DNA of 21,993 bases from IMG/VR virus record IMGVR_UViG_3300030104_002621, positions 2,797 to 24,789 of that record, one strand, 5' to 3'. Each line of letters begins with the position of its first letter. Positions within the stretch are counted from its first letter, which is position 1. The stretch is from a virus. Below, piece by piece: positions 2,644 through 20,411 of this stretch. The position numbers were made by a program, and so were the translations under genes. Below the pieces are notes generated by a model, which ran no database searches, was not told the DNA's origin, and saw only the letters and a program-made list of their open reading frames with translations.

Positions 2644-2910
2644 ATGAGATTCATGAAAAAATTTATAGTAAATATCTGGGCATACGATCATCATGCAAGA
2701 TTTGATGTTTTGTCCCTAGATGACCCACAATCCTTAGAAAATGCAATCCTTGACAAACTTGGAGAAAACGTTATAAAGTGGGAAGATCTTGGAAATAGTT
2801 ATAATGACAAGATTAATAGAATAACCTATGAGGAGGTTGTTGATGATACAAGACCTATACAAACAAAAAAGGTCCTTGGAGTTGAAGTGGGAACAGGAGC
2901 ATCTATCTAA
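2644..2910 (+). CDS. Small protein of unknown function
   Basis: This is an 88-residue reading frame between the capsid terminator and the promoter-like spacer. A second ATG at 2653 (M-K-K-F-I-V) is also possible; a partial GATGAG lies before it and the first ATG has little upstream signal. The protein begins with a K-F-I-V-N-I-W-A-Y strand, has a central acidic helix and ends in a T-K-K-V-L-G-V-E-V strand, suggesting a small alpha/beta fold. I do not recognise it. Its end overlaps the next small gene by 68 bases, and that gene's ribosome-binding site lies inside it, suggesting the two are translated together. Confidence 0.55.
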   Translation: MRFMKKFIVNIWAYDHHARFDVLSLDDPQSLENAILDKLGENVIKWEDLGNSYNDKINRITYEEVVDDTRPIQTKKVLGVEVGTGASI

Positions 2911-2995
2911 TGGTAGATATACTCTTGAAATGGTCAGGATCGATGACAAAGTTAAAAAAGTCATTACAAAGATCAAAAGCTACATCGTTGAATAA
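2843..2995 (+). CDS. Overlapping 50-residue helical protein, unknown function
   Basis: The start is the ATG at 2843 and the stop is TAA at 2993-2995. The evidence is a perfect AGGAGG at 2831-2836, six bases before the ATG, inside the preceding gene and read in another frame. The product is short, highly charged and probably helical: it starts M-I-Q-D-L-Y-K-Q-K-R, contains W-E-Q-E-H-L and ends V-I-T-K-I-K-S-Y-I-V-E. No cysteine cluster, signal peptide or membrane segment is seen. It overlaps the previous gene by 68 bases. Such small proteins are common in phages and often bind a partner; nothing here says which. Confidence 0.6.
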   Translation: MIQDLYKQKRSLELKWEQEHLSNGRYTLEMVRIDDKVKKVITKIKSYIVE

Positions 2996-3019
2996 ATCAG
3001 ATTCACACTACAGGCTCTC

Positions 3020-3048
3020 TTGCACTCTACTAAAATGTAGTATATAGT
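3020..3048 (+). promoter_or_regulatory. Candidate sigma70-type promoter
   Basis: TTGCAC (3020-3025; 4 of 6 against TTGACA) is followed after exactly 17 bases by TATAGT (3043-3048; 5 of 6 against TATAAT). It lies in the largest non-coding gap in the window (2996-3135), after a terminator and two small genes. Transcription would begin near 3055 and give a leader of about 80 bases. TATAGT also pairs with ACTATA at 3055-3060, so it could be part of a small hairpin instead. Confidence 0.45.
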
Positions 3049-3072
3049 TTTATCACTATACAATTATTTAAA

Positions 3073-3113
3073 GAACATAGACGCGTATAGTCGACGGCCT
3101 AGAGACTATGTTC
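3073..3113 (+). promoter_or_regulatory. Inverted repeat in the leader of the 3136 gene
   Basis: GAACATAG (3073-3080) is perfectly complementary to CTATGTTC (3106-3113) across a 25-base, more GC-rich loop that holds TCGA and a weak inner TAG/CTA pair. It lies between the candidate promoter and the ribosome-binding site AGGAGG (3122-3127), so it would be in the mRNA leader. It could stabilise the message or be a protein-binding operator; the sequence does not decide. Confidence 0.4.
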
Positions 3114-3135
3114 ATAAAACTAGGAGGATATAATT

Positions 3136-3690
3136 ATGGCATCAACTACGTTTAACGGACCAGTAAGGTCTGAAAAAGGTTTCCAAGTTGCAACTAAAAA
3201 TGCAACTACTGGAGCAATAACAACTAGAATGAGTTCAGGTATGCCTGACTTAACTGGTTTATCAGTATCAGATGTAGCAACAGCTACTAGTATTACACTA
3301 GCGGCAGATACTATTTCTGTAATAAATTACACAGGTGCAGCAGCTGCAACTTGTACTTTACCTGCAGCAACGCAAGGTACAATAGTAGTTTATGCACAAG
3401 CAAAAGATACAACTGGAGGAACTGCTACATTAACTTTTGATGCAGCGGGTTCTGATGTTTGGGCAACTGGTTCAGTAATTGAATCAAGAGCAACAGCAGA
3501 AGTAACTTTTGATACTTCAGCGGCAAATGAAACTCAATTAGTTTTTACACCAGCTAACGCAGCAACAAACTTATTCACAACAGGAAGCATGATTGCTTTT
3601 ATTTGTTATGAAAAAGGTACATGGCATATTGCATCTAAAATGGGTGGCGCAGCAGACGCTACTACAGGTGCATTTGCATTTGCAGCATAA
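3136..3690 (+). CDS. Small beta-rich virion structural protein
   Basis: This 184-residue protein has a strong AGGAGG ribosome-binding site nine bases before the ATG. It starts M-A-S-T-T-F-N-G-P-V-R-S-E-K-G-F-Q, a start I associate with decoration or fibre proteins of marine phages, and continues as an Ala/Thr/Gly-rich, probably all-beta chain. It has one Trp-containing strand (D-V-W-A-T-G-S-V-I) and a C-terminal segment G-T-W-H-I-A-S-K-M-G-G. No membrane segment or enzyme motif is present. It has its own promoter-like spacer upstream and a strong terminator downstream, so it seems to be an independent, highly expressed unit, as expected for an abundant surface protein. Decoration versus minor head or fibre protein cannot be decided. 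Confidence 0.65.
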   Translation: MASTTFNGPVRSEKGFQVATKNATTGAITTRMSSGMPDLTGLSVSDVATATSITLAADTISVINYTGAAAATCTLPAATQGTIVVYAQAKDTTGGTATLTFDAAGSDVWATGSVIESRATAEVTFDTSAANETQLVFTPANAATNLFTTGSMIAFICYEKGTWHIASKMGGAADATTGAFAFAA

Positions 3691-3700
3691 TAATTAATTA

Positions 3701-3728
3701 GTGTGGGCTTCGGCCCACACAAATTTTT
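3701..3728 (+). terminator. Rho-independent terminator with UUCG tetraloop
   Basis: An 8-bp perfect stem, GTGTGGGC (3701-3708) with GCCCACAC (3713-3720), is closed by a TTCG tetraloop and followed by AAATTTTT. This is a textbook intrinsic terminator ten bases after the stop of the preceding gene. It marks the end of that unit and the start of the connector genes. Confidence 0.9.
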
Positions 3729-3740
3729 AAGGAGAAAAAT

Positions 3741-4040
3741 ATGGATTCAGATCAACAGTTTTCTACAAGAACTTCTGATGGAAGATTTGGTAGAGCAACA
3801 GATGCTTCAAGTTCTTTTATTGGACCAGCTAGAATAACTTATATTCAAGTTGAAGGAGTGGCTAATAGCAATATCAAACTTTATGATGGAACAGATGCAA
3901 CTGGAGCTTTAGTATTCGAAGGTAATTGCGGAACTGAAGGACTAGATATATATGTTCCTGGCAGTGGTATTAGATGTAGAACTGGAATATATTTAGATTT
4001 AACTAATACGACATCGGTAACTATTGGTTATACTGGCTAG
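3741..4040 (+). CDS. Small beta-rich structural protein
   Basis: The protein has 99 residues; AAGGAG lies nine bases before the ATG. After a polar N-terminus (Q-F-S-T-R-T-S-D-G-R-F-G-R-A) it shows alternating strands such as A-R-I-T-Y-I-Q-V-E-G, I-K-L-Y-D-G, A-L-V-F-E-G and T-S-V-T-I-G-Y-T-G, giving a compact beta-sandwich-like profile. Small proteins of this kind recur among marine phage structural genes, and two more beta-rich small proteins lie at 8572 and 21399 in this window. No catalytic residues stand out. It is followed after eight bases by the first adaptor-like gene, so it is probably a virion component near the head-tail junction, by inference. Confidence 0.6.
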   Translation: MDSDQQFSTRTSDGRFGRATDASSSFIGPARITYIQVEGVANSNIKLYDGTDATGALVFEGNCGTEGLDIYVPGSGIRCRTGIYLDLTNTTSVTIGYTG

Positions 4041-4048
4041 GAGGTTAA

Positions 4049-4798
4049 ATGGCTAACACTACCTCTGGAACAACGACGTTTGATAAAACTTTTGCTATTG
4101 ATGAAATAATAGAAGATGCTTTTGAACGTATAGGATTGCAAAATGTTGCAGGTTATCAACTTAAATCTGCAAGAAGATCTCTTAATATATTATTTCAAGA
4201 ATGGGGTAATAGAGGTATTCACTATTGGGAAATAGATGAACTTGATTTAGATTTAGTTGAAGGACAAGCTGAATACGATTTTTTTAGATCAAGTGATGAT
4301 GGCACAAGTGCTACCTCAACACCAAATGGTGTATATGGAATATCTGATGTTCTTGAAGCACAATTAAGATCTAATAGAACACAAACGACTCAATCTGATA
4401 GTCCTATGACTAAAGTTGATAGATCTACTTATGCAGGTTTTTCTAATAAATTATCAAAAGGTACACCTAATCAATACTGGGTAGAAAGATTTATTGATAA
4501 AGTTAGAGTGCATGTTTATCCAACACCAGACTCTACTAATGCATCTAAAGATATGCATTTTTATTACATAAAAAGAATACAAGATGTAGGAGATTATACA
4601 AACGCAACAGATGTACCATTTAGGTTTGTTCCTTGTATGATAGCTGGTTTAGCATTTTATCTTGCACAAAAATATCAAATACAAGTAGTTCAACAAATGA
4701 AACTATACTATGAAGATGAATTACAAAGAGCTCTTGCAGAAGATGGTTCAGCTTCTAGCACACACATAACACCAAAAGCTTATTACCCAGGAGCATAA
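4049..4798 (+). CDS. Head-tail adaptor-like protein (copy 1)
   Basis: This 249-residue protein resembles the short-tail adaptor proteins of SU10/P22 gp4 type, which form a ring below the portal. The N-terminal helical part (I-D-E-I-I-E-D-A-F-E-R-I-G, then L-K-S-A-R-R-S-L-N-I-L-F-Q-E-W) is the clearest family signature. A beta-rich middle (V-E-G-Q-A-E-Y-D-F, V-R-V-H-V-Y-P-T-P) follows, with a C-terminal helical part (about 195-235: F-V-P-C-M-I-A-G-L-A-F-Y-L-A-Q-K-Y). The ribosome-binding site GGAGG at 4040-4044 overlaps the preceding stop. A second, diverged protein of the same plan is at 5582. The stop overlaps the next start (TAATG). The family assignment is from remembered pattern, not a search. 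Confidence 0.75.
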   Translation: MANTTSGTTTFDKTFAIDEIIEDAFERIGLQNVAGYQLKSARRSLNILFQEWGNRGIHYWEIDELDLDLVEGQAEYDFFRSSDDGTSATSTPNGVYGISDVLEAQLRSNRTQTTQSDSPMTKVDRSTYAGFSNKLSKGTPNQYWVERFIDKVRVHVYPTPDSTNASKDMHFYYIKRIQDVGDYTNATDVPFRFVPCMIAGLAFYLAQKYQIQVVQQMKLYYEDELQRALAEDGSASSTHITPKAYYPGA

Positions 4799-7721: not shown

Positions 7722-8549
7722 ATGGCATCAACATACACACCACTCGGTATAGAACTTCAAGCAACTGGTGAAAACGCTGGTACATGGGGAAATAAAACAA
7801 ACGTTAATTTACAAGTTGTTGAACAAATAGCTGGTGGTTTTACACAACAAGCTTTAACTAGTGGTGGAACTGTTGCTTTAACAAGCAGTGATGGAGGAAC
7901 AGGAGACGTTCTTGCTCATAGAATAATAGAATTTACAGGTTCATTATCTGGTAATGCAGTTGTCACAATACCTCTTGATGTACAAAATTTTTATCTTTTA
8001 AGAAATTCTAGTTCTGGTTCTTATACAGTTCAGTTTAAATATACTTCTGGATCAGGAAGTTCTGTAACTTTTTCTGCTACAGATAAAGGAGATAAATTAG
8101 TTGTTGCAAAAGGTAATGATGGAACTAATCCTGATATTGTAGAAATATCATTAGCTACAGCAGGCACAGTAACAGAAACTGGTACACAAACTTTAACAAA
8201 CAAAACGTTAACATCACCTAAAATAGGAACATCTATTTTAGATACAAATGGTAATGAATTATTTCTATTAACAGCTACAAGTTCCGCGGTTAATCAATTG
8301 ACATACGCGAATGCAGCTACAGGAAACAAACCATCTCTTACTGCATCTGGTGGAGACACTAATATTGGTGTATCTATACAGCCAAAAGGCTCAGGAACAG
8401 TCACTATTGATGCTTTGACTTTTCCAGCAGCGGATGGTAGTAGTGGTCAAATATTACAGACTGATGGTTCTGGAAACTTAAGTTTTACAACAGCATCAAG
8501 CGGTATATCAATGGGAAAAGCTATTGCAGCAGCGATAGTTTTCGGATAA
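7722..8549 (+). CDS. Tail-fibre-like protein
   Basis: This is a 275-residue protein. The N-terminus, S-T-Y-T-P-L-G-I-E-L-Q-A-T-G-E-N-A-G-T-W-G, is a block I recognise from fibre proteins of marine phages and probably attaches the fibre. The middle is beta-rich (about 60-150) and includes F-Y-L-L-R-N-S-S-S-G-S-Y-T-V. A T-G-T-Q-T-L-T-N-K-T-L-T-S-P-K-I motif near 155-170, typical of phage fibre shafts, is followed by an S-I-Q-P-K-G-S-G-T-V-T-I unit and by S-S-G-Q-I-L-Q-T-D-G-S-G-N-L-S-F, another shaft-type motif. The last 15 residues are hydrophobic (M-G-K-A-I-A-A-A-I-V-F-G), which could pack into a trimer or bind a partner. Receptor specificity cannot be read from the sequence. Confidence 0.8.
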   Translation: MASTYTPLGIELQATGENAGTWGNKTNVNLQVVEQIAGGFTQQALTSGGTVALTSSDGGTGDVLAHRIIEFTGSLSGNAVVTIPLDVQNFYLLRNSSSGSYTVQFKYTSGSGSSVTFSATDKGDKLVVAKGNDGTNPDIVEISLATAGTVTETGTQTLTNKTLTSPKIGTSILDTNGNELFLLTATSSAVNQLTYANAATGNKPSLTASGGDTNIGVSIQPKGSGTVTIDALTFPAADGSSGQILQTDGSGNLSFTTASSGISMGKAIAAAIVFG

Positions 8550-8943: not shown

Positions 8944-10863
8944 ATGTCGGAAAGTTATCCTAGACGAGACCAAGCCCGAGGGATTTGGAAAATCAATGAC
9001 ATTACTAAAAATAAAAAAGAATTAGGGACTTATCCATCTGGTGCAACTAGAGGAGTTGTTTCTGGTGGATCTACACCAAGCGTAATAAATACAATACAAT
9101 TTATAACTATTGAAACTACGGGTAATGCGGCAGACTTTGGTGATTTAACTGTATCAAAAACTTATCCAGCTATGGGTCAAACTTCATCTTTTACAAGAGG
9201 TATTATTGCTGGAGGTATTACTCCATCTTACATAGATAGCATTGACTACGTACAAATTCTTTCAACAGGTAATGCAGCAGACTTTGGTAATTTAACAAAT
9301 TCTGCAGGTTTTATGGCTGGAAACTCAAATGATACAAGATGTGTTTTTGGACCAAGAAGACTTTCTCCAGGTGGTGCATCAAACGTATTAGATTTTATAA
9401 CTACTGCTACTTTAGGTAATGCAACAGATTTTGGAGATGCTACTGCCAATAGAAGAAATTTGCCTGGGGCATCTAATAATACAAGAGGTTTAATTTTTGG
9501 AGGTGAAGAAAGTAGCACTGTAAATAAAATAGAATTTTTAGAATTTTCAAGTGGGGGAGGCACAGCAGACTTTGGAGACTTATCAGGTACAAATCAAGAT
9601 TCAGGTGCTACAGCTAATAATACAAAAGCTTTAAATATGGGAGGCTACATAGGTGGTAGTTATAATAATACTATAGATTCTGTTAACATAGGTAGTTTAG
9701 GTAACTCTGTAGATTTTGGTGATTTAAGTATAGCCAAAAAAGGTAGCACTAGTGGATTAAGTAATAAAGTAAGAGCAGTTTCCGCTGGAGGTTTTACTGA
9801 TCCAGGAGTTTCGAATGTTATTGATTTTGCTAATTTTGAAACAAGAGCTAATTTTTCAGACTTTGGTGATTTAACTGTAGCACTACAACAAGCTGGTAGT
9901 TTTTCAAATCAACATGGTGGCTTACAAGAATTCCAACCAAGAGCCCCAGAACTTTATTCACCAACAGGTAAAATTGATAATGGTGATATAGGATATATTT
10001 GTGGTGGAAATCAACCATCAGTAACTACTAGAATTCAATTTATACAAATATCTAGTTTAGGTAATTCACAAGATTTTGGTGATTTAACACTCGCAAGAAG
10101 TAGTGCTTCTACTACTGGAAATCGCACTAGAGGTATTAATGCTGGTGGATATACTCCAACACACTTTGATACAATAGATTATATGAATCCAACTGAAAAA
10201 GGAAATTGTGCAGATTTTGGAAATTTAAGTAATAGTCGTTATGGAGCTTTAGGCGCAAGTAATGATACCATAGCTGTTTTTATGGGAGGAGATTCTCCAG
10301 GCGATGATAATAGAATGGACAGTGTAACTATTGCAACAACTGGTAATGCAACAGATTTTGGAAATACAACAGCTAATATTTTTCAAGGGGCTAATAATAT
10401 CAATAGCACTACAAGAGGAATAGGAGCAGGGGGGTATACTGCTCCAGCAGGAGTAAATACTATTCAATATATTACTTTTTCATCTTTAGGAGATGCTACA
10501 GATTTTGGAGATTTAACTGTAGCAAGATATGATCCAGGTGGAGTTTCTAGTTCAACAAGAGGGATAGCCGCAGGAGGAAAACAACCAAACAGCACTCTTC
10601 ATAACAACATAGACTATATAACTATCGCCTCAACAGGTAATGCAACCGACTTTGGAGATTTATCAGTTACTAGAGGGGTGGGTCCTAATGGAGCTAGTAA
10701 TAAATTAAGAGGTGTATTTGCAGGTGGTGAAGCTCCTGGTGCTTCTAATGTTATGGATTACATAACAATTGCTTCAACGGGTAATGCAGCAGATTATGGT
10801 GACTTACTGTCAACTGCTACTTATGCTTCAGGTGGTTCTACGGGACACGGTGGACTTTCGTAA
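8944..10863 (+). CDS. Double six-repeat beta-propeller-like protein 1
   Basis: This 639-residue protein has a GGAGG ribosome-binding site seven bases before the ATG. Residues 1-34 form a short head with R-G-I-W-K-I-N-D. Then come 12 repeats of about 45-50 residues: T-R-G-(hydrophobic)-x-x-G-G, a variable loop, N-x-I-D-Y-I-T-I-A-S, T-G-N-A-x-D-F-G-D-L-T, a variable loop, S-N-x. Six repeats end in H-G-G-L-Q, a ~20-residue linker (R-A-P-E-L-Y-S-P-T-G-K-I) follows, then six more end in H-G-G-L-S. A hydrophobic strand ending in a Gly pair, a following aromatic strand and a later Arg resemble kelch blades, so two six-bladed propellers are likely. A receptor- or glycan-binding fibre role is inferred. 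I recognise no named family. Confidence 0.8.
   Translation: MSESYPRRDQARGIWKINDITKNKKELGTYPSGATRGVVSGGSTPSVINTIQFITIETTGNAADFGDLTVSKTYPAMGQTSSFTRGIIAGGITPSYIDSIDYVQILSTGNAADFGNLTNSAGFMAGNSNDTRCVFGPRRLSPGGASNVLDFITTATLGNATDFGDATANRRNLPGASNNTRGLIFGGEESSTVNKIEFLEFSSGGGTADFGDLSGTNQDSGATANNTKALNMGGYIGGSYNNTIDSVNIGSLGNSVDFGDLSIAKKGSTSGLSNKVRAVSAGGFTDPGVSNVIDFANFETRANFSDFGDLTVALQQAGSFSNQHGGLQEFQPRAPELYSPTGKIDNGDIGYICGGNQPSVTTRIQFIQISSLGNSQDFGDLTLARSSASTTGNRTRGINAGGYTPTHFDTIDYMNPTEKGNCADFGNLSNSRYGALGASNDTIAVFMGGDSPGDDNRMDSVTIATTGNATDFGNTTANIFQGANNINSTTRGIGAGGYTAPAGVNTIQYITFSSLGDATDFGDLTVARYDPGGVSSSTRGIAAGGKQPNSTLHNNIDYITIASTGNATDFGDLSVTRGVGPNGASNKLRGVFAGGEAPGASNVMDYITIASTGNAADYGDLLSTATYASGGSTGHGGLS
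9046..9927 (+). repeat. Propeller repeats 1-6, protein 1
   Basis: Six repeats of roughly 140-150 bases begin at T-R-G-V-V-S-G-G and end at H-G-G-L-Q. Several are degenerate: repeat 3 lacks the Gly pair (V-F-G-P-R-R), and repeat 4 has G-G-G-T-A-D-F-G-D-L instead of G-N-A. Confidence 0.85.
9985..10860 (+). repeat. Propeller repeats 7-12, protein 1
   Basis: Six repeats begin at D-I-G-Y-I-C-G-G and end at H-G-G-L-S. The last three are close to consensus (I-D-Y-I-T-I-A-S-T-G-N-A-T-D-F-G-D-L), closer than most of the first block. Confidence 0.85.
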
Positions 10864-10879
10864 GATTCTATAGTATAAA
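10851..10879 (+). promoter_or_regulatory. Weak candidate promoter between the propeller gene and the helical-protein gene
   Basis: TGGACT (10851-10856, in the last codons of the upstream gene) is followed after 17 bases by TATAAA (10874-10879). The gap 10864-10925 also carries TATAGT (10869-10874) and its complement ACTATA (10908-10913), as in the 2996-3135 spacer. In AT-rich DNA such matches are common, so this is low confidence. Confidence 0.25.
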
Positions 10880-10925
10880 AACTACAACATGATCATATAC
10901 ATGCTAAACTATAAAGGAGAAAAAT

Positions 10926-11777
10926 ATGTCATCTAAAGATCTAGTTATACAAAAACTATCAAACTCACCACTGGTTAAAAAAGAGTATAAACAAATGTTA
11001 ACCAACATCAATGCAACACTACCAGCAATAAAACAATCAAGCTCAAACTTCTACAAATCACACTCACAGTTTATGGGTGTTATGTTAGACGTTACAGCGA
11101 TCACACCTATCAGATCAGTCAAGCACACACTAGCTGAACTAGATAAAACTAGAATGGCCCTAGAAGAAGCACAACTTAAAATGATGAAGAAGGATATTGA
11201 ACTTCGTCAAAAAGAAAAGAAACTAGCTAATGGAGAGTTTAAAGACGATCTAGAAAGAGAGCTTTTAGAAACAGAGATATTAGAGGTCAAGGTAAATATG
11301 AACAATATACAAAACTCAGTATCTGGAGCTATCAGAAAGATGAACTTCTTTACTAATCAATACAAGAGTATCTTGAAGAAGTTAGGTAAAGATGATATTA
11401 CTGAGGAAGAGTACGAAAAAGAGGAGTCTAGATATCATGTCATGACTTGTCTAAAACAAGCTTTAAACGCTGCTCGTGCCCGAGGCGGAGTTATAGATGA
11501 AGGAAACTTGATTTATCTCTTCGATATGGGTATAAACAGTGCTCAGGCACAAGCTGAAATTTATGCTTATTTGGAAATGGAAAATAAGTTAATGAAAGAA
11601 GGTAAAGCGCCTACCCACGAAATGACCATGCAATGGTTAGAAGCGTGCGCTGATAAATTCTCTGGTGAATCTGTAAAATTCGCAGAGCGAAGAGGATTTA
11701 AGCTGTACGATGAAGATTCGCTCAACACTAAACTGATAGATAATAAGGAGAAACCAAATGGCAAACAAGATAGTTAA
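10926..11777 (+). CDS. Helical protein between fibre genes, unknown function
   Basis: This 283-residue protein has an AAGGAG ribosome-binding site. It is quite unlike its neighbours: highly charged, mostly helical, and with few Gly/Thr/Ser repeats. Residues about 62-170 (S-V-K-H-T-L-A-E-L-D-K-T-R-M-A-L-E-E-A-Q through R-E-L-L-E-T-E-I-L-E-V) could form a long coiled coil. A more globular helical part at about 172-265 includes C-L-K-Q-A-L-N-A-A-R-A-R-G-G and H-E-M-T-M-Q-W-L-E-A. No enzyme motif is visible. Its place among fibre genes makes a fibre-assembly chaperone or a coiled-coil virion protein possible, both inferred. Its last 20 bases overlap the next gene in another frame. Confidence 0.7.
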   Translation: MSSKDLVIQKLSNSPLVKKEYKQMLTNINATLPAIKQSSSNFYKSHSQFMGVMLDVTAITPIRSVKHTLAELDKTRMALEEAQLKMMKKDIELRQKEKKLANGEFKDDLERELLETEILEVKVNMNNIQNSVSGAIRKMNFFTNQYKSILKKLGKDDITEEEYEKEESRYHVMTCLKQALNAARARGGVIDEGNLIYLFDMGINSAQAQAEIYAYLEMENKLMKEGKAPTHEMTMQWLEACADKFSGESVKFAERRGFKLYDEDSLNTKLIDNKEKPNGKQDS

Positions 11778-12051
11778 ATATAAACTTACAGATGCAGGAA
11801 CTATTCCAACATGGATTGAAGATGGCGGATACTACCCTGATTCTGAAGAAGTTATGATTGGTGCAACGGTTGATAGTTCAAGTGAAGTAGGACTTGGTGA
11901 ACTTGCAAGTGAAGCAGATGTAAAAACATATTTAGATACGTATACATCTTCTTGGACTGAAGATGCAAATGATCCTAGTGATCCAACTGCAACTGTACCG
12001 TTTGATCAAGCAACTGCAGCCACACATATCTGGTCTAAAAAGATAGGTTAG
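11758..12051 (+). CDS. Small acidic protein before propeller gene 2
   Basis: A 97-residue product starts at an ATG inside the previous gene, seven bases after a GGAG. It is acidic and Thr/Asp-rich, with Y-K-L-T-D-A-G-T-I-P-T-W at the start, E-V-M-I-G-A-T-V-D and A-D-V-K-T-Y-L-D-T-Y in the middle, and I-W-S-K-K-I-G at the end. No known domain is recognised. It ends three bases before propeller gene 2 and may be co-translated with it. It could be a small fibre-associated or assembly protein, with no direct evidence. Confidence 0.6.
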   Translation: MANKIVKYKLTDAGTIPTWIEDGGYYPDSEEVMIGATVDSSSEVGLGELASEADVKTYLDTYTSSWTEDANDPSDPTATVPFDQATAATHIWSKKIG

Positions 12052-12054
12052 TAA

Positions 12055-13914
12055 ATGGCTAACTACCCGCAACTTGATAACGCTTCGGGCGTTTGGAACC
12101 TGCGTGAAGTCTATGACGCGGTTATGGGTGGGTATTGGCCTAATGTAAACTCTCGTGCATTGTTTATGGGAGGAAATAACCAACTTACTGATTTTGTAAC
12201 AATTTCTACAACTGGTAATGCAAGTTTTTTTGGAGACACTGGAGCAATAACTGATGCCTCTGATTCATCTGGTCATGGAAATCAAACAAGAGCAATATTT
12301 AATGGAAATACGCCTTTAGCTACACAAGTTTATTATACTATTTCAACTTTAGGTAATGCTGCAAACTTTGGTGATTTATCACAAGGCAGAAGACTTACAA
12401 GTGGTGCTTCAAATGAAACTAGAGGAGTAACTGCAGGGGGTATTACACCTTCTTATGTAAACACAATTGACTACAATAGTATTATGTCAACTGGTGCAGC
12501 AACCGACTTTGGTAATTTAACAGTATCTAGATATGGACCAAATAGTGGAACTGCTTCTCCAACACGAGCTCTTTTTTTTGGAGGCTATACTGGGAGTAAT
12601 TCAAACGTAATAGATTTTATAGAAATAAATACTACTGGTAATGCAGTTGATTTTGGTGATGTTACCGCTGGTGCAGAGTATGGTTATCAAGCATGTGCTT
12701 CAAGCACAAGAGCTGTTTGTAGTGGTGGTTTTAACACAAGTTTAGCCTTTGTAACAATTGCTTCTCAAGGTAATACTATTGATTATGGAGATGCTACAAT
12801 TGCATTTTCAAATGCAGGGTCTACAAGTAATTCAGTTAGAGGACTTATTGGCGGCGGATACAATCCAGCCATTTCTAGCAACATAGATTTTTTTAATATT
12901 GCAACAGGAGGTAATGCAACAGATTTTGGTGATCTAACACATGCGAGACAAGAGTTAACTGCAACATCTCAATCGCACGGCGGACTAAACGACGGGTTTC
13001 AAGGAACAAGACCTTTACCATTTAACGAAGCTGGTGGTGATAGATTAATTAGATATATGGGTAATGATGGATCATCAAATTTTACAGATGTTGGTTTTTT
13101 AACAATTTCAACTGATGGAAATGAAAATGATTTTGGAGATGCACTAACTGGAGATGGTTCACAAGTAGGTGGCATGGGAAATAAAACAAGAGCTTTATTT
13201 TCGGGCTCGAATCCAGCAGTTACAAATATAGATTATTTAACTTTTTCTACAAAAGGTAATGCTGCCGACTTTGGAGATAGAACTGTTTCTATGTTTGCTA
13301 CAATGCCTACTAATAATAACACAAGAGGTGTAGTGCAAGGAGGTGCAACACCTACCAGAACCAATGTTATGGATTATGTAACTATAGCAGTTTTAGGTAA
13401 TGCAGCAGACTTTGGAGATTTATCACAAGCTAGAGCGGCTGGAGCAGAAGGAGGAAACATAACTAGGGGATTAGCTATAGGAGGCTCAACTCCATCTCAA
13501 GTTGATACTGTTGATTATATAACTTTTTCAACAGTTGGAAATTCTACAGATTTTGGTAATTTGTCTGCAGCAAGAATTGATATGGGTAGTGCAAATTCTA
13601 CAACAAGATCAGTTGTAATGGGTGGTGGTACACCTTCATTAGTTAATATAATGGAATATTTTACAACAGCGACTACAGGTAATGCAACAGATTTTGGAGA
13701 TTTAACTACAGCGACTAGACAACCAGCTAATGGTTTAGCATCTAATACTACTAGAGGACTTTTTGTTTCAGGTTACACACCTTCTTATGTAAATACTATA
13801 GAAAAAATAACAATCGCATCAACTGGAAACGCATCAGATTTTGGAGATACAATAGGTGCAAGAGCAGATGCTGGAGCAGCTTCTAATGGACATGGAGGTT
13901 TAGTAGGTGGCTAG
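12055..13914 (+). CDS. Double six-repeat beta-propeller-like protein 2
   Basis: This 619-residue protein starts three bases after the previous stop, with only a weak AGG upstream. The head (1-32) contains S-G-V-W-N-L-R-E-V-Y, matching the heads of proteins 1 and 4. There are 12 repeats with the same T-R-G/A-hydrophobic-G-G ... G-N-A-x-D-F-G-D-L pattern. Block one ends S-H-G-G-L, a linker with R-P-L-P-F-N-E-A-G-G-D follows, and block two ends G-H-G-G-L-V-G-G. Repeat 1 has F-F-G-D instead of D-F-G-D, and repeat 7 lacks the Gly pair (R-Y-M-G-N-D). The last four bases of the protein's coding region and stop overlap the GTG start of the next gene. As for protein 1, propeller fold and receptor binding are inferred. 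Confidence 0.8.
   Translation: MANYPQLDNASGVWNLREVYDAVMGGYWPNVNSRALFMGGNNQLTDFVTISTTGNASFFGDTGAITDASDSSGHGNQTRAIFNGNTPLATQVYYTISTLGNAANFGDLSQGRRLTSGASNETRGVTAGGITPSYVNTIDYNSIMSTGAATDFGNLTVSRYGPNSGTASPTRALFFGGYTGSNSNVIDFIEINTTGNAVDFGDVTAGAEYGYQACASSTRAVCSGGFNTSLAFVTIASQGNTIDYGDATIAFSNAGSTSNSVRGLIGGGYNPAISSNIDFFNIATGGNATDFGDLTHARQELTATSQSHGGLNDGFQGTRPLPFNEAGGDRLIRYMGNDGSSNFTDVGFLTISTDGNENDFGDALTGDGSQVGGMGNKTRALFSGSNPAVTNIDYLTFSTKGNAADFGDRTVSMFATMPTNNNTRGVVQGGATPTRTNVMDYVTIAVLGNAADFGDLSQARAAGAEGGNITRGLAIGGSTPSQVDTVDYITFSTVGNSTDFGNLSAARIDMGSANSTTRSVVMGGGTPSLVNIMEYFTTATTGNATDFGDLTTATRQPANGLASNTTRGLFVSGYTPSYVNTIEKITIASTGNASDFGDTIGARADAGAASNGHGGLVGG
12151..12987 (+). repeat. Propeller repeats 1-6, protein 2
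   Basis: Six repeats run from S-R-A-L-F-M-G-G to S-H-G-G-L. Repeat 5 is shortest (about 43 residues), with a truncated loop after the Gly pair (G-G-F-N-T-S-L-A-F-V). Confidence 0.85.
13045..13908 (+). repeat. Propeller repeats 7-12, protein 2
   Basis: Six repeats run from L-I-R-Y-M-G to H-G-G-L. Repeats 9-12 are near consensus, for example G-G-S-T-P-S-Q-V-D-T-V-D-Y-I-T-F and S-T-G-N-A-S-D-F-G-D. Confidence 0.85.
13894..13909 (+). promoter_or_regulatory. Ribosome-binding site made from the H-G-G codons
   Basis: GGAGG at 13894-13898 lies in the codons CAT-GGA-GGT for the terminal H-G-G of propeller protein 2. It is eight bases before the GTG start at 13907 and so decides that start. The same codons do this job again before 15154. 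Confidence 0.7.
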
Positions 13915-15154
13915 ATCAACAACATTTAAATATACTGTAACAGTTGTTTCTTCAGGTGGAAACAAATATGCTATTGATGGTAACACTCAACAATATGTTG
14001 TTTTGTTTCCTGGTTGCACATACGAGTTTAATCAAGATGATAGCAGCAACAGTGGACACCCATTAAGATTTTCTGAAACACCGAATGGTTCTCATGCAGG
14101 TGGATCAGAATACACAACAGGTGTAACAACATCAGGAACTCCTGGTTCAGCTACAGCATTTACAAAAATAGAAGTAACAGGTTCAACACCTTATATTTTA
14201 TATTATTACTGCACACAACATAGTGCTATGGGTGGCACAGTAAATATGCCAAGTAGTGCTAACACAGATAGAGCAGTATTGATGGGTGGTCTTAACCCAA
14301 GTGCTACCAGTACTTGTGATTATGTTGCTGTTTCAAGCACAGGAAATGCAGTAGACTTTGGTGATCTTATTAGAACACAAACAGCTTTTGATGCAAGAGG
14401 ATCAAATACAGTAAGAGCAATTTGTGCAGGAGGTAGTGGTGCAGCTTCACCGTCAACAGATATAAGTGAGATAATTTTTGCAACACAAGGAAATGGTGCC
14501 GACTATGGTGATCTAAACGCTACGAATGCAAGAATGGGTGGTAACTCAAATTCATTAAGAGCAGTGTTTGGTGGTGGAGAAAATCCAAGTGGTAGAAACA
14601 GTAACATGGACGCAGTTATGATTACTTCAGGAGGTAATGCTGTGGATTATGGAGACATGACCACTACAGGTGGTGCATCAGGAGGTTTAGCAAGCACAAC
14701 AAGAATAGTATGGTCGGGTGCAGATATTGCGTCGGGTTACACTAATGTAATGCAATATGGAACAATTGCTACAAATGGAAATGCTGTAGACTTTGGTGAT
14801 CAATCAGTTACAAGAGGTTGGCCGACTGGGGTGAGTAATAATACAAGAGGTGTTTTTGCAGGTGGTTTTACTTATGCAGCTCCCACAGCAACTTATTATA
14901 ATCAGATGGATTATATTACAATTGCCTCAACAGGTAATGCAACAGACTTTGGAGATTTGGTTTCAAATATGAGACCTGCTGGTACATCAAACAAAACAAG
15001 AGCAGTATTTATGGGTGGTGATACTGGTAGTGCATCAAATGTAATTCAATATATTACAATAGCATCTACAAGTAATACGACTGACTTTGGAGATTTAACA
15101 GAAGCAAGAATGTTAGGTAGTGCAGTTTGTGGTTCACATGGAGGTATTGAATAA
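13907..15154 (+). CDS. Cupredoxin domain fused to a six-repeat propeller
   Basis: The protein has 415 residues with a GTG start overlapping the previous stop by eight bases. Residues 5-117 look like a cupredoxin: strands F-K-Y-T-V-T-V-V and Y-T-F-E-type Y-E-F-N-Q-D-D, then G-H-P-L-R-F-S (His51), and near the end I-L-Y-Y-Y-C-T-Q-H-S-A-M-G-G, giving Cys102, His105 and Met108. His...Cys-x2-His-x2-Met is a full type-1 copper ligand set, with a ligand-loop spacing like that of amicyanin. Residues 121-415 are six repeats of the propeller type ending S-H-G-G-I-E. There is no signal peptide. A virion-bound domain is likely; copper binding or redox activity is inferred. The fold may instead be used only as a structural beta-sandwich. 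Confidence 0.8.
   Translation: MARSTTFKYTVTVVSSGGNKYAIDGNTQQYVVLFPGCTYEFNQDDSSNSGHPLRFSETPNGSHAGGSEYTTGVTTSGTPGSATAFTKIEVTGSTPYILYYYCTQHSAMGGTVNMPSSANTDRAVLMGGLNPSATSTCDYVAVSSTGNAVDFGDLIRTQTAFDARGSNTVRAICAGGSGAASPSTDISEIIFATQGNGADYGDLNATNARMGGNSNSLRAVFGGGENPSGRNSNMDAVMITSGGNAVDYGDMTTTGGASGGLASTTRIVWSGADIASGYTNVMQYGTIATNGNAVDFGDQSVTRGWPTGVSNNTRGVFAGGFTYAAPTATYYNQMDYITIASTGNATDFGDLVSNMRPAGTSNKTRAVFMGGDTGSASNVIQYITIASTSNTTDFGDLTEARMLGSAVCGSHGGIE
14267..15151 (+). repeat. Propeller repeats 1-6, protein 3
   Basis: One block of six repeats runs from D-R-A-V-L-M-G-G to S-H-G-G-I. Repeats 2 and 3 have D-Y-G-D for D-F-G-D, repeat 4 begins R-I-V-W-S-G-A without a Gly pair, and repeat 5 has a longer loop (A-P-T-A-T-Y-Y-N). 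Confidence 0.85.
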
Positions 15155-15156
15155 TG
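15140..15156 (+). promoter_or_regulatory. Second ribosome-binding site made from H-G-G codons
   Basis: GGAGG at 15140-15144 is part of CAT-GGA-GGT, coding for H-G-G near the C-terminus of propeller protein 3. It lies nine bases before the ATG at 15154, which itself overlaps the preceding TAA. Confidence 0.7.
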
Positions 15157-17010
15157 TCTAACGCAGGAAAAATTTGGAATATACGAGAAGCTTATAAAAA
15201 ACAAAGAGGCAATCAATGGATTGAACCAGGTAATATTGGTTTATATGGTGGTGACAATTCAATATTAAATACAGTGGATCAAATTAATATTTCTAATAAT
15301 GGTAATGCAACAGACTTTGGAGATTTAACTGAATCAATTAAAAAAGGTGCAGCAGCAGGTGCACTAACTAGAACAGTAAGATGTGGTGGTAGTACACCTA
15401 GTGATGTAAATACCATGGACTTTGCTAATCCATTTAATGCAGGTAACTTTGTTAATTTTGGGGATTTAACGGCAGCAGGTCAAACAACAAACACTGCTCA
15501 TTCTAATAACGTAAGAGGTATTTCTTCTGAGGGACAAGGATCACCTGGAACTAAAAATCTTAATGTATTTACAATCGCATCACAAGGTAACGCTGCACAA
15601 TTTGGAGATGTCACTCAAAATGATGCAATATGGTCATGTGGTGGTGGAAATAATACAAGATATTTTTCTGCAGGAGCTTATCCCGCTAGTAATATTATTT
15701 GTGTAAAATCAATTGCTAACGATGCAGATTGTGTTGACTTTGGAGATTTATCTGCAAGTAAATGGGGTGTAAGTCAAAACTCAAATCCAACTAGAATATG
15801 TTTTTCAGGAGGTCAAGAGCCAGGTAAAAGCACAGACATTGAATTCATAACTATTGCAACTGCGGGTAATTCAACTGATTTTGGAGATCTAACAAGAGCA
15901 ATAGGAGATACTTCTGCTGCTTGTAATTCTATAAGAGGAGTTGTTCAAGGAAGTGATTCTCCTAGCACAGCAGGTTTAGATGTTTTTACACTTGCAACAA
16001 CTGGAAATGCTACAGATTTTGGTGACACCACAAGAGCTTTTGATCAATGTTTTGGTGCAAGTAATGGTCATGGTGGTATACCACAAACAGATCAATTTCC
16101 TCAACGTGCATCGGTAAACTATATGCCTGGATCAGGGAGAGCAATAATATGTGGTGGACCACCATCACCTAAAATTGAAACATTTAATATTTCAACATTA
16201 GGTAATACAGTTACTTTTGGTTCATTAATTTTAAATGCAGAAAACTGGGGTGGAGGTTGTGGTAATGCAACTAGAATGTTAGAGGCAGATGGTGGAGCAG
16301 ACAGTGGTTATACAACACAGATTTCAGCAATTGAAATGGCATCGTTTGGTAATGCTTCAGATTTTGGAGACAGCACATCAGCAAGAGCTAATCAAGGTTC
16401 TCTTGCTAATAGCACAAGAGGAGTTTGGGGTGGAGGTTACGACCCTGATGGTTCACCAGCTTATAGTAATGTTATAGATTATGTAACTATATCTACATTT
16501 GGAAATGCTACAGATTTTGGAGATTTAACTACAAACGGAAGTGGTGCAGGGGGAACAGCTAATTCAACAAGAGGTATATTTGGTCCTAGAGGACCAGGTT
16601 CAGGAACTGCAAACGTAATCGATTATATAACAATAGGTTCAACAGGTAATACAACTGATTTTGGGGATGCCACAGTATCAAGAGGACAAACTGGAATGGG
16701 TGCTAGTTCAACAAGAGCTTTATTAGGAGGAGGTGGCGGAACCTCAAATGTAATTGATTATGTAACCATTGCTAGCACTGGTAATGCAACAGATTTTGGA
16801 GATTTAACTGTAGGAAGACAAGCTGTTTTTTGCACTACTAATAACAGTAGAATTGTTTGGGGTGGAGGATATACACCAAGTCAAAGTAATGTAATTGACT
16901 ATGCAACTATTGCTTCTACAGGTAATGCTGTTGATTTTGGTGATATAGCATCTGGAGCAAGAGCTAATGTAATGGCTTCATCAGACTCACATGGTGGTTT
17001 ACAATCATAA
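15154..17010 (+). CDS. Double six-repeat beta-propeller-like protein 4
   Basis: The 618-residue protein starts inside the previous stop (TAATG). The head (1-26) contains G-K-I-W-N-I-R-E-A-Y, like proteins 1 and 2. It has 12 repeats in two blocks of six: block one ends G-H-G-G-I-P, then a linker with Q-F-P-Q-R-A-S-V-N-Y-M-P, and block two ends S-H-G-G-L. Block one is degenerate (repeat 4: A-N-D-A-D-C-V-D-F-G-D; repeat 3 has S-S-E-G). Repeats 9-12 are the nearest to consensus in the cluster. It holds ten cysteines, clearly more than propeller proteins 1 and 2, seven of them in block one. A promoter-like gap and two oxygenase genes follow. Fold and receptor-binding role are inferred as for the paralogues. 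Confidence 0.8.
   Translation: MSNAGKIWNIREAYKKQRGNQWIEPGNIGLYGGDNSILNTVDQINISNNGNATDFGDLTESIKKGAAAGALTRTVRCGGSTPSDVNTMDFANPFNAGNFVNFGDLTAAGQTTNTAHSNNVRGISSEGQGSPGTKNLNVFTIASQGNAAQFGDVTQNDAIWSCGGGNNTRYFSAGAYPASNIICVKSIANDADCVDFGDLSASKWGVSQNSNPTRICFSGGQEPGKSTDIEFITIATAGNSTDFGDLTRAIGDTSAACNSIRGVVQGSDSPSTAGLDVFTLATTGNATDFGDTTRAFDQCFGASNGHGGIPQTDQFPQRASVNYMPGSGRAIICGGPPSPKIETFNISTLGNTVTFGSLILNAENWGGGCGNATRMLEADGGADSGYTTQISAIEMASFGNASDFGDSTSARANQGSLANSTRGVWGGGYDPDGSPAYSNVIDYVTISTFGNATDFGDLTTNGSGAGGTANSTRGIFGPRGPGSGTANVIDYITIGSTGNTTDFGDATVSRGQTGMGASSTRALLGGGGGTSNVIDYVTIASTGNATDFGDLTVGRQAVFCTTNNSRIVWGGGYTPSQSNVIDYATIASTGNAVDFGDIASGARANVMASSDSHGGLQS
15232..16080 (+). repeat. Propeller repeats 1-6, protein 4
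   Basis: Six repeats run from N-I-G-L-Y-G-G to G-H-G-G-I. This is the most divergent block, with several lost Gly pairs and many cysteines. Confidence 0.8.
16138..17004 (+). repeat. Propeller repeats 7-12, protein 4
   Basis: Six repeats run from R-A-I-I-C-G-G to S-H-G-G-L. The I-D-Y-(V/I/A)-T-I and G-N-A/T-x-D-F-G-D core is almost unchanged in repeats 9-12. Confidence 0.85.
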
Positions 17011-17034: not shown

Positions 17035-17661
17035 ATGAAAGAAGAATTATTACAATTGTTTCCTACACCTTTGTTGATTGTGCCATACGAACAATCGATT
17101 GATAAGGAACTGGCTTATTTAAAAACCATCAGTTATCGTGAGCAACAACAAAATGGTAATTACAGATCGGATGATTCGTATTTGTTACGTAATGAAGAGT
17201 TTAAGAATATAAAAAATTTTTTAAAAGAATCTATAGATAAATATACTACAAATGTTTTAAATACAAAACAGAGATTAGTCATCACACAATGCTGGGCTAA
17301 TAGAAATCCAAAAGGTTCTAAACATCACGAACACGTGCATCCAAACAGTATAGTATCTGGAGTTATGTATTTTCAGATAAACGAAAAACTACCACCTATA
17401 GCTTTTGCTAAAGATCGACAAGACGGCATGAAACTAGATCCTGAAAAATATAATTATATGAATTCAGAATCTTTTATGCTGCCTTGTAAGCCAGGTGAAT
17501 TAATATTATTTCCATCTTCATTGAAACATAGCGTACCAATTAATCAAGGTGAGGAAGATAGAATAAGTGTATCATTCAATACGTTTTGTATTGACGCTAT
17601 AGGGTCAGAGCAATCACTAACTCATTTAGACATAAGGAGGTTAATGAATGAGCACAATTAA
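17035..17661 (+). CDS. Fe(II)/2-oxoglutarate oxygenase (2OG-FeII_Oxy_5 type)
   Basis: This 208-residue protein belongs by pattern to the 2-oxoglutarate- and Fe(II)-dependent oxygenases. The N-terminus L-F-P-T-P-L-L-I-V-P is typical of the family. The core has C-W-A-N-R-N-P-K-G-S-K-H-H-E-H-V-H-P-N-S (86-105), where His100/His102 hold a proximal iron ligand, then S-G-V-M-Y-F (108-113), and L-I-L-F-P-S-S-L-K-H (156-165) with the distal His165, plus Arg176 in R-I-S-V-S-F-N-T as the 2-oxoglutarate anchor. Such enzymes couple 2-oxoglutarate decarboxylation to hydroxylation; the substrate here is unknown. No ribosome-binding site is visible. The stop lies inside the next gene, a second oxygenase of another family. 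The site looks complete, so activity is plausible. Confidence 0.85.
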   Translation: MKEELLQLFPTPLLIVPYEQSIDKELAYLKTISYREQQQNGNYRSDDSYLLRNEEFKNIKNFLKESIDKYTTNVLNTKQRLVITQCWANRNPKGSKHHEHVHPNSIVSGVMYFQINEKLPPIAFAKDRQDGMKLDPEKYNYMNSESFMLPCKPGELILFPSSLKHSVPINQGEEDRISVSFNTFCIDAIGSEQSLTHLDIRRLMNEHN

Positions 17662-18214
17662 AAGTTATATATATGTAAAGAATCACATACCGAAAGAATT
17701 ATGTGAAGCATTAATAGATGAATGTAATAAAGGTATTTGGAGAAAACATACCTGGAATAATTATGCATCTGGTGAAACATCGTCTGAGCCTACAAAAGAA
17801 TTAGATGTAATGAATTGCACTAAAGAACAACAAGCAAAGATTACGCCATACTTAGTTAAAGCATTAGGTGAATATCAAGAAAAACATAGCGCACCAGGAG
17901 GCAAGACTCAGGGACCATGGCTCAGTAAATTTAGTCCAATACGTTTTAATAGATACAATGTTGGCACTATGATGAGAGAACACTATGATCATATACACAG
18001 TATATTTGATGGTCAAATGAAAGGAGTGCCTATAGTATCGATTGTGGCTAATCTAAATGAAGACTATGAGGGCTCTGAATTCTATTGCAGGGGAGAGAAA
18101 ATTGAGTTAAAAACAGGTGATATACTGTTATTTCCATCTAACTTTATGTACCCACATGAAGTTAGAGAGACTACAAAAGGCACCCGTTACTCGTTTGTAA
18201 GCTGGGCTTTTTAA
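17648..18214 (+). CDS. Fe(II)/2-oxoglutarate oxygenase (prolyl-4-hydroxylase-like)
   Basis: A 188-residue protein starts within the previous gene; AAGGAGG (17634-17640) lies seven bases before the ATG at 17648. It has the prolyl-hydroxylase-like core: R-F-N-R-Y-N-V-G-T-M-M-R-E-H-Y-D-H (His112-x-Asp114 iron ligands), a beta segment I-V-S-I-V-A-N-L-N, the characteristic Y-E-G-S-E-F-Y (about 140-146), G-D-I-L-L-F-P-S (157-164), distal His170 in Y-P-H-E-V and Arg180 in G-T-R-Y-S-F-V-S-W for 2-oxoglutarate. All key residues are present. It is a different subfamily from its neighbour; the overlap suggests coordinated expression. Related phage genes occur widely in marine viruses, usually with unknown substrate. 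Confidence 0.87.
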   Translation: MSTIKSYIYVKNHIPKELCEALIDECNKGIWRKHTWNNYASGETSSEPTKELDVMNCTKEQQAKITPYLVKALGEYQEKHSAPGGKTQGPWLSKFSPIRFNRYNVGTMMREHYDHIHSIFDGQMKGVPIVSIVANLNEDYEGSEFYCRGEKIELKTGDILLFPSNFMYPHEVRETTKGTRYSFVSWAF

Positions 18215-18230
18215 TATATAATGAGGTTAT

Positions 18231-20411
18231 ATGCTACAAAAAATAGGTTTTCAACCAGGTATCAACAAACAGATAACACCTACAGGTGCAGAGGGTCAAT
18301 GGACCGACTGTGATAATGTTCGTTTTAGATATGGCACACCTGAAAAAATAGGTGGTTGGAAACAATTAGGGGATGATGCTCTTACAGGAGCAGGCAGAGG
18401 TCTTCATCATTTTGTAAATAGTTTATCTAGAAAATACGCGATCATAGGTACAAACAGAATTTTATATGCATTTTCTGGTGGTGTATATTACGATATACAT
18501 CCTATTAAATCTACAACAACGCTTACAAGCGCATTTACCACGACCAACGGATCAGCTGAAGTTACAATAACTTTTAGTGGTGCTCATGGTATATCAGCAC
18601 AAGATATTATATTGTTAGATAATTTTTCAGCTATTACTAATTCTAATTTTGCAGCTGCAGATTTTAATGATAAAAAATTTATGGTTACAACCGTGCCTAC
18701 AAGTTCAACATTAACTATTACAATGCCATCAAATGAATCTGGATCTGGTGCAACAACATCGGGTGGTATACGAGTACAACATTATTATCCTGTAGGACCA
18801 GCGGTGCAAGCAAAAGGTTTTGGTTGGTCATTAGGATCTTGGGGTGGTGAAGTATCAGGTGAACCTGCAACCACTCTACAAAATGGTATTAATGATGCTG
18901 TTACAACAGGTATTATATTAGTTGATTCATCACAGTTTCCAACAGCAGGAACAAATTTTATAATCATAGATAGTGAAGAAATATCTTATACAGGTATTGC
19001 AGCTACAGGAGAACTTACAGGTGTAACAAGAGGTGTAGCAGGGACAACAGCAGCAGCTCATAGCGGTGGTGCAACTATTACAAGTTCTACAAACTTTGTA
19101 GCATGGGGTGAAGCAGCATCAGGTGATTTAGTATTAGAACCTGGTATGTGGTCATTAGATAATTTTGGTGACAAAGCTATTTGTTTAATTCATGACAGTG
19201 CTGTTTTTGAATGGAACTCTGCAGCAACAGACGCAACATCTAATAGAGCAACTATTATATCTGGTGCACCAACTGCATCAAGACATATGTTAGTATCTAC
19301 ACCTGATAGACACTTAGTATTTTTTGGAACAGAAACAACTATAGGAACACCATCATCACAAGATGATATGTTCGTAAGATTCTCAGATCAAGAAGATATA
19401 AACACGTATACACCAACAGCAACTAACACAGCTGGTACACAAAGACTGGCTGACGGATCACAGATCAGAGGGGCAATAAGAGGTCGTGATGCAATTTATG
19501 TTTGGACTGATACTGCATTATTTACTCAACGTTTTGTTGGTCAACCATTTACATTTGCATTTGCACAGGTTGGAACTAACTGTGGACTTGTTGGACAAAA
19601 TGCATGTGTAGAAGTTGATGGTGCTGCATACTGGATGTCAGAGAATGGTTTCTTTAGATATGCTGGTAAGTTAGAATCATTACCTTGTTTAGTAGAAGAT
19701 CACGTTTATGATGATATAAATTTAGAATCTGGCAATCAGATGGTATCAGCAGGTCTAAACAATCTGTTTGGTGAGGTCATGTGGTTTTATCCAACAGCTT
19801 CATCATCAGTTGTAAATAGAATGGTTGCATATAACTATTTTGATTCTTCACCACAAAGACCTGTTTGGACGAATGGAACATTGGCTAGAACTATGTGGCA
19901 AGATTCTGCTGTATTTGGTAATCCACATGCAACAGAATACGACGCAGCTACTGATACATCTTTTGATGTTGTTGGAAATACAGACGGAAGAACAATATAC
20001 TATCAACACGAAACAGGAACTGATCAAGTACAAGGTGGTTCAACTACAGCAATTGTTGCAAGTATTGAATCAGGAGATTTTGATATTACTCAAAGAATAG
20101 TAGGTAATCAACAAACAGGTATAGCAGATACTAGAGGAGATGGTGAATATATTATGAAGATAAGAAGATTCATACCTGATTTTATATCACAAACTGGAGC
20201 CACTAGAATAACTTTAAATTTACGTGATTTTCCTAATGATTCACAATCAGGTTCTCCATTAGGGCCATTTGATATAACATCTAGTACAAAAAAAATAGAT
20301 ACAAGAGCGCGTGCACGTGCTATAGCTCTTAAAATATCTAATACATCTTCTAATCAAAGTTGGAAATTAGGAACATTCAGATTAGATATACAACCAGACG
20401 GAAGACGATAA
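18231..20411 (+). CDS. Tail hub, P22 gp10-like DNA-stabilisation protein
   Basis: This 726-residue protein starts M-L-Q-K-I-G-F-Q-P-G-I, followed by E-G-Q-W-T-D-C-D-N-V-R-F-R-Y-G and P-E-K-I-G-G-W, the N-terminal signature of the packaged-DNA stabilisation protein of P22-like phages (gp10), which forms the hub closing the tail channel. The middle (about 90-300) is beta-rich, with an insertion of Ig-like or barrel segments (S-T-L-T-I-T-M-P-S, I-I-D-S-E-E-I-S-Y-T-G-I, L-T-G-V-T-R-G-V-A-G-T-T). Later parts hold A-Y-W-M-S-E-N-G-F-F-R-Y-A-G and R-M-V-A-Y-N-Y-F-D. No enzyme motif is visible. GAGG four bases before the ATG is a modest ribosome-binding site. The stop overlaps the next ATG. Its size is larger than P22 gp10, mainly because of the insertion. 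Confidence 0.8.
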   Translation: MLQKIGFQPGINKQITPTGAEGQWTDCDNVRFRYGTPEKIGGWKQLGDDALTGAGRGLHHFVNSLSRKYAIIGTNRILYAFSGGVYYDIHPIKSTTTLTSAFTTTNGSAEVTITFSGAHGISAQDIILLDNFSAITNSNFAAADFNDKKFMVTTVPTSSTLTITMPSNESGSGATTSGGIRVQHYYPVGPAVQAKGFGWSLGSWGGEVSGEPATTLQNGINDAVTTGIILVDSSQFPTAGTNFIIIDSEEISYTGIAATGELTGVTRGVAGTTAAAHSGGATITSSTNFVAWGEAASGDLVLEPGMWSLDNFGDKAICLIHDSAVFEWNSAATDATSNRATIISGAPTASRHMLVSTPDRHLVFFGTETTIGTPSSQDDMFVRFSDQEDINTYTPTATNTAGTQRLADGSQIRGAIRGRDAIYVWTDTALFTQRFVGQPFTFAFAQVGTNCGLVGQNACVEVDGAAYWMSENGFFRYAGKLESLPCLVEDHVYDDINLESGNQMVSAGLNNLFGEVMWFYPTASSSVVNRMVAYNYFDSSPQRPVWTNGTLARTMWQDSAVFGNPHATEYDAATDTSFDVVGNTDGRTIYYQHETGTDQVQGGSTTAIVASIESGDFDITQRIVGNQQTGIADTRGDGEYIMKIRRFIPDFISQTGATRITLNLRDFPNDSQSGSPLGPFDITSSTKKIDTRARARAIALKISNTSSNQSWKLGTFRLDIQPDGRR

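Follow-up and report, generated by a model that had tools for sequence, protein, structure and literature searches.

Gene content of the locus

We analysed a stretch of 21,993 nucleotides (hereafter the window), which is part of the 33.7 kb record of an uncultivated ocean phage, and identified four genes, A to D, whose products are built of repeats of about 47 amino acids (Table 1). The capsid protein of the same record showed 81% identity to that of Pelagibacter phage HTVC027P and 73% to that of HTVC023P. The phage is related to phages of SAR11 bacteria, and a SAR11-like host is plausible from these identities.

The repeat genes are flanked by two tail-type genes, the orthologues of HTVC027P gp69 and gp75. 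Between gp69 and gp75, HTVC027P has a tail-collar protein at the place where the window has the repeat cassette, and no such repeats were found in those stretches of HTVC027P and HTVC023P that were examined. The spacing of A and B, with the 283-aa gene between them, was preserved in relatives such as L030, and the order B-C-D, in the form 12-6(cupredoxin)-12, was conserved in 35 loci. Two adjacent 2OG-Fe(II) oxygenase genes directly follow the cassette (17035-18214). HTVC027P and HTVC023P, neither of which has the repeats, carry comparable genes close to their tail genes, so the link between oxygenases and repeat proteins is not specific.

Table 1 Features of the repeat-gene cassette and its flanks (window coordinates)
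Feature	Coordinates	Strand	Remarks
Upstream tail gene, left synteny anchor	7722..8549	+	N-terminal part 40% identical to HTVC027P gp69 'putative tail protein'
Protein A, 639 aa, two hexads (12 blades)	8944..10863	+	Fold predicted from models of paralogues C and D
A hexad 1, blades 1-6 and closing strand	9043..9924	+	HGG at aa 324
A hexad 2	9982..10860	+	HGG at aa 635
283-aa protein between A and B	10926..11777	+	phrog_1409 (no function assigned)
97-aa protein	11758..12051	+	Weak match to phrog_13616 (no function assigned)
Protein B, 619 aa, N-terminal SGVWNLREVYDAV motif and two hexads	12055..13914	+	
B hexad 1	12151..12987	+	HGG at aa 308
B hexad 2	13039..13911	+	HGG at aa 613
Protein C, 415 aa, N-terminal cupredoxin-like domain and one hexad	13907..15154	+	
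C cupredoxin-like N-terminal domain	13907..14245	+	PHROG tail-fibre matches; tblastn to 165 phage records; weak pseudoazurin match
C hexad	14261..15151	+	HGG at aa 411; AlphaFold2 pLDDT mostly 80-95, predicted kelch fold
Protein D, 618 aa, short N-terminal helix motif and two hexads	15154..17010	+	
D hexad 1	15226..16080	+	HGG at aa 306
D hexad 2	16126..17007	+	HGG at aa 613
Virion structural / 'stabilization' protein, right synteny anchor	18231..20411	+	Orthologue of HTVC027P gp75

Repeats are counted in sixes

When the translations were divided at [FY]G[DNS], A, B, C and D gave 12, 12, 6 and 12 repeats, respectively; two extra FGN matches in D were rejected as units, as they lie inside repeats. 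The initial annotation had read these proteins as seven blocks of six repeats (hexads), each ending in HGG(L/I), and this was borne out, with HGG occurring once per hexad. One small correction is needed: each hexad begins with an incomplete blade 1, which lacks its first strand at the N terminus and receives it from the C-terminal strand that ends in HGG. On a 99.8% identical contig (L001, 5956-7660), protein B lacked about one blade (roughly 148 bases) and carried a frameshift, which may reflect a collapse of repeats during assembly or a real recombination between blades.

An alignment of the seven window hexads, searched against IMG/VR, retrieved at least 550 related stretches. We then ran a 47-column repeat HMM built from the window on 239 loci, including those from further scans, which yielded 445 distinct ORFs. 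Repeat numbers in these homologues followed multiples of six, as the window had suggested: 590 of the 628 fully seen blocks on related viral contigs held exactly six repeats, and complete ORFs mostly had 6 (187 ORFs), 6+6 (182) or 6+6+6 (3). Neighbouring repeats lay 48 ± 2 aa apart within blocks, and the median distance across linkers was 68 aa. HGG followed 493 of 612 last blades (81%) versus 34 of 3,060 other blades (1%), and the hexad pattern with its HGG is far from chance.

The inspected blocks scored at other numbers were explained by degenerate blades that the HMM missed (mostly blade 1, which has the lowest score), linkers below the cut-off, truncations and split genes that change frame; where linkers were short, adjacent hexads were read as 12. 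No convincing case of an intact ring of a size other than six was found among them. One viral contig (L011, 1528-17530) carried eleven single-hexad genes within one 18 kb stretch.

Two types of split hexads were also seen. In the first (L049 3757-4763, L053 7200-8239, L095 5567-6570, and also L122), the hexad is interrupted within the B-C loop of blade 3 and spans two ORFs; the break comes directly behind the GG doublet, and the stop and start codons overlap (ATGA or TTGA). This split is common to contigs differing by about 19% in DNA, and both halves showed dN/dS values of 0.4-0.6, below 1; it could represent either a two-chain ring or a frameshift. In the second type (L067 about 1030-2932, L070 about 2705-4625, and also L163 and L164), the split comes after three blades, just past the GG doublet in the B-C loop, and the codons GGGAGGA, which resemble a ribosome-binding site, lie shortly before an ATG in another frame.

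Predicted fold and ring closure

Using family alignments, we modelled one single-hexad protein (C) and one double-hexad protein (D) with AlphaFold2. Overall pLDDT was 83.6 for C and 82.6 for D, and the pTM of D was 0.52, with an uncertain placement of its two heads relative to each other. In Foldseek searches against the PDB, the top matches of both models were the six-bladed kelch domains of KLHL12, KEAP1 and KLHL3 (E 5e-18 for C and 3e-16 for D; TM to target 0.87 and 0.85, respectively, over about 290 columns). The earlier proposal that each hexad is a closed six-bladed propeller is thus supported by confident models, which match closed kelch rings.

In the C model, the strands of each repeat were A (AGAS), B (RGVFA, followed by GG), C (IDYITIAS) and D (TDFGD). 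A generalized four-stranded blade would run from strand A (xAGAS) through strand B (TRGVFAGG), a long variable B-C loop, strand C (NVIDYITIAST), a tight TGN turn and strand D (ATDFGDL) into a variable D-A loop. DSSP assignments of both models indicated that strands B-C-D of blade 1 open a hexad and that strand A of the same blade ends it. The same arrangement was described for KLHL20, in which blade 1 takes strands B-C-D from the N terminus and strand A from the C terminus (PMC6720452), and the modelled closure topology of the hexads is that of KLHL20. Strand A of blade 1 would be closed by H-G-G, which takes the place of T-R-G in ordinary blades. The HGG motif, suspected at the outset to mark closure, is explained in the models by its position at the end of this strand.

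N-terminal modules and probable tail location

The hexad was C-terminal: in all complete ORFs, 14-26 aa came after the last FGD, except for one ORF in which the last blade was missed. Several kinds of modules precede it. In L066, a T7-type tail-fibre N terminus (PHROG tail families, down to E 7e-39) is followed by a C-terminal hexad; L068 has a tail-fibre-like N terminus ahead of its hexad; and L097 combines a Laminin_G_3 (LamG) lectin domain, Fn3 and a hexad. The cupredoxin-like domain of C was also found in annotated tail-fibre proteins, including those of cyanophages and pelagiphages, and in virion structural proteins. Other N termini held short GVWxLxE motifs; the longer form SGVWxLxExYxAVxxGxW precedes many of the propellers (53 of 233 ORFs; 12055-12140 in the window, and relatives) and is perhaps a docking peptide.

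Many of the phage records that match the cupredoxin-like domain by tblastn are from cyanophages. Residues H51, C102, H105 and M108 of this domain were invariant or nearly so, and they are a possible blue-copper ligand set, with a Met spacing unlike the usual axial one.

Two features expected of a receptor-binding protein were found, namely a place in the tail gene cluster (by synteny with HTVC027P) and fusion to tail-fibre anchors (L066 and others). From the domain fusions and the synteny, we infer that tail or tail-fibre proteins carry the propellers as C-terminal heads, with one, two or three heads per chain behind interchangeable N-terminal modules.

Loop variability and a likely role in host recognition

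Insertions and entropy were profiled over 1,029 distinct repeats. In the B-C loop, 33% of repeats had insertions before column 23 and 21% before column 29; the D-A loop had them in 10%, whereas the A-B and C-D turns had them in about 0.1%. Entropy peaked in the D-A loop. Among nine D orthologues, amino-acid differences reached 62% in the D-A loops and 49% in the B-C loops versus 23-24% in strand D and the C-D turn. The corresponding dN/dS values (NG86, rough at these divergences) were about 1.1, 0.75 and about 0.2, and strand A was likewise fast-evolving (about 0.9). No match to a reverse transcriptase, which a diversity-generating retroelement would carry, was found in the virus record, which is possibly incomplete.

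In kelch domains, the D-A and B-C loops shape the ligand surface (PMC6720452). Since the variability sits in these same loops, we infer that receptors on the host surface may be bound through the face that they form. The propellers are likely the host-recognition parts of the tail, which fits the domain fusions, the synteny and the loop variability. Taken together, the observations are best explained by closed six-bladed kelch propellers that serve as C-terminal tail or tail-fibre heads and bind host receptors via the D-A and B-C loops, a reading that we regard as quite probable.

High dN/dS in the loops could also mean relaxed constraint. It is conceivable on this basis, though unlikely, that the hexads are structural or decoration subunits of the tail or capsid with no receptor role, as would suit the conserved B-C-D order, expected of a structural module, and the tail-type anchor genes on both sides of the cassette. 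However, the divergence and the insertions are concentrated on one face, and hexads are found at the C terminus of T7-type and lectin-bearing fibre-like proteins. Depolymerases of Klebsiella phages commonly adopt a six-bladed propeller fold (PMC11448410), and the heads might accordingly act as tail-associated depolymerases or glycosidases and not purely in binding. We consider this very unlikely: the sialidase Asp-box motif was detected in just 3 of the 445 ORFs, the best structural matches were to kelch and not to sialidase, and the residues under strong conservation (G-G, N, D-F-G-D, R) are structural ones that come back in successive blades. Enzymatic action is the less likely because Asp boxes are nearly absent and the structural matches are kelch. 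That the repeats form an open solenoid or another non-propeller fold, for which the low sequence similarity to known kelch families could speak, is hardly tenable against confident models matching closed six-bladed rings and a strict count of six with a closing strand.

Beyond receptor-binding kelch heads as such, marine phages may perhaps carry interchangeable multi-head arrays of this six-bladed module, each head directed to a different surface feature by its D-A/B-C loop face (seven heads in the window phage, eleven single-head genes in L011), with one ring made of two chains in two lineages, where the split falls in a B-C loop and the stop and start codons overlap or adjoin; we put this forward as a doubtful possibility.

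Host recognition by phages of the most abundant ocean bacteria is largely obscure, and most tail genes of marine phages are unnamed. For a family of at least 550 candidate IMG/VR stretches, which standard Pfam and NCBIfam models miss, the present results offer a predicted fold, a rule for the number of repeats and a likely face for binding, and its loops can now be tested. In the window phage, four neighbouring genes encode seven predicted heads, and such a six-fold scaffold with a single binding face, used as repeated heads, would be a natural counterpart to designed kelch propellers.

Relation to kelch domains and described families

None of the window proteins scored above the cut-off of Pfam Kelch models (only Kelch_4 at E 0.39 for B), no NCBIfam family matched the window hexads, and sequence searches of the PDB gave no kelch match for the window proteins. 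The GG doublet after strand B was held by 87% of repeats (columns 21-22 being G in 87% and 92%). The classical kelch repeat consensus has a Y-x6-W spacing, which was present in 0.2% of 3,919 repeats.

Against cultured phages, tblastn gave no match for D or for a 101-aa piece of A, and C matched mainly via its cupredoxin-like domain. Among hexads, only that of L066 reached cyanophage S-SKS1, with matches at nine places (E 3e-6). The S-SKS1 repeats (YGYFGGG...IDRIDFSNETTS) aligned in register with those of the window (hhalign profile alignment, E 2e-6); one S-SKS1 protein reached the cut-off of Pfam Kelch PF24681 and another that of Kelch_3. Since the window repeats align with repeats that match Pfam Kelch, the window family is a divergent kelch branch in which two classical sequence hallmarks are lacking.

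The initial annotation knew of no described family with this signature. This stands as far as Pfam and NCBIfam are concerned, and our literature searches found no paper describing the hexad repeat, but the unnamed PHROGs 19111, 26444 and 27227 contain it, and kelch-type propellers of phages have already been annotated (in BcepSaruman, while those of S-SKS1 match Pfam Kelch). An enrichment of kelch repeats among long reads of marine viruses has also been reported (PMC9238414). Kelch itself is a known fold, but this large phage branch with its strict count of six has been poorly described.

The three PHROGs match the hexads by sequence and state neither function nor fold. The 'Kelch-motif containing protein' of Burkholderia phage BcepSaruman (A0A4D5ZBY9) is similar in predicted structure (TM to target 0.83) at 18% identity. 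Several kelch-like proteins annotated as hypothetical occur in S-SKS1 (L240 = HQ633071.1, record 183986-207000; L241, 1-1226), with six-repeat blocks and GGASERIKGSRT linkers. These proteins (SWZG_00001, SWZG_00289 and others) share with the window family the repeat register, six repeats followed by a longer interval, and several paralogues per phage; unlike it, they match Pfam Kelch and have neither the GNATDFGDL signature nor the HGG ending. Being a cultured cyanophage, S-SKS1 offers a tractable laboratory model for such proteins.

The kelch domains of the BTB-kelch proteins KLHL12, KEAP1 and KLHL20 resemble the window family in predicted fold, six blades, a Gly-Gly doublet ending strand B, a C-terminal strand A that closes blade 1, and one face formed by B-C and D-A loops that vary. 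Identity to them is about 9-17%, however, and the window family, with no Pfam Kelch match above cut-off, has ID(Y/F)...TGNxxDFGDL rather than the Y-x6-W pair, and occurs without a BTB domain in a phage tail setting.
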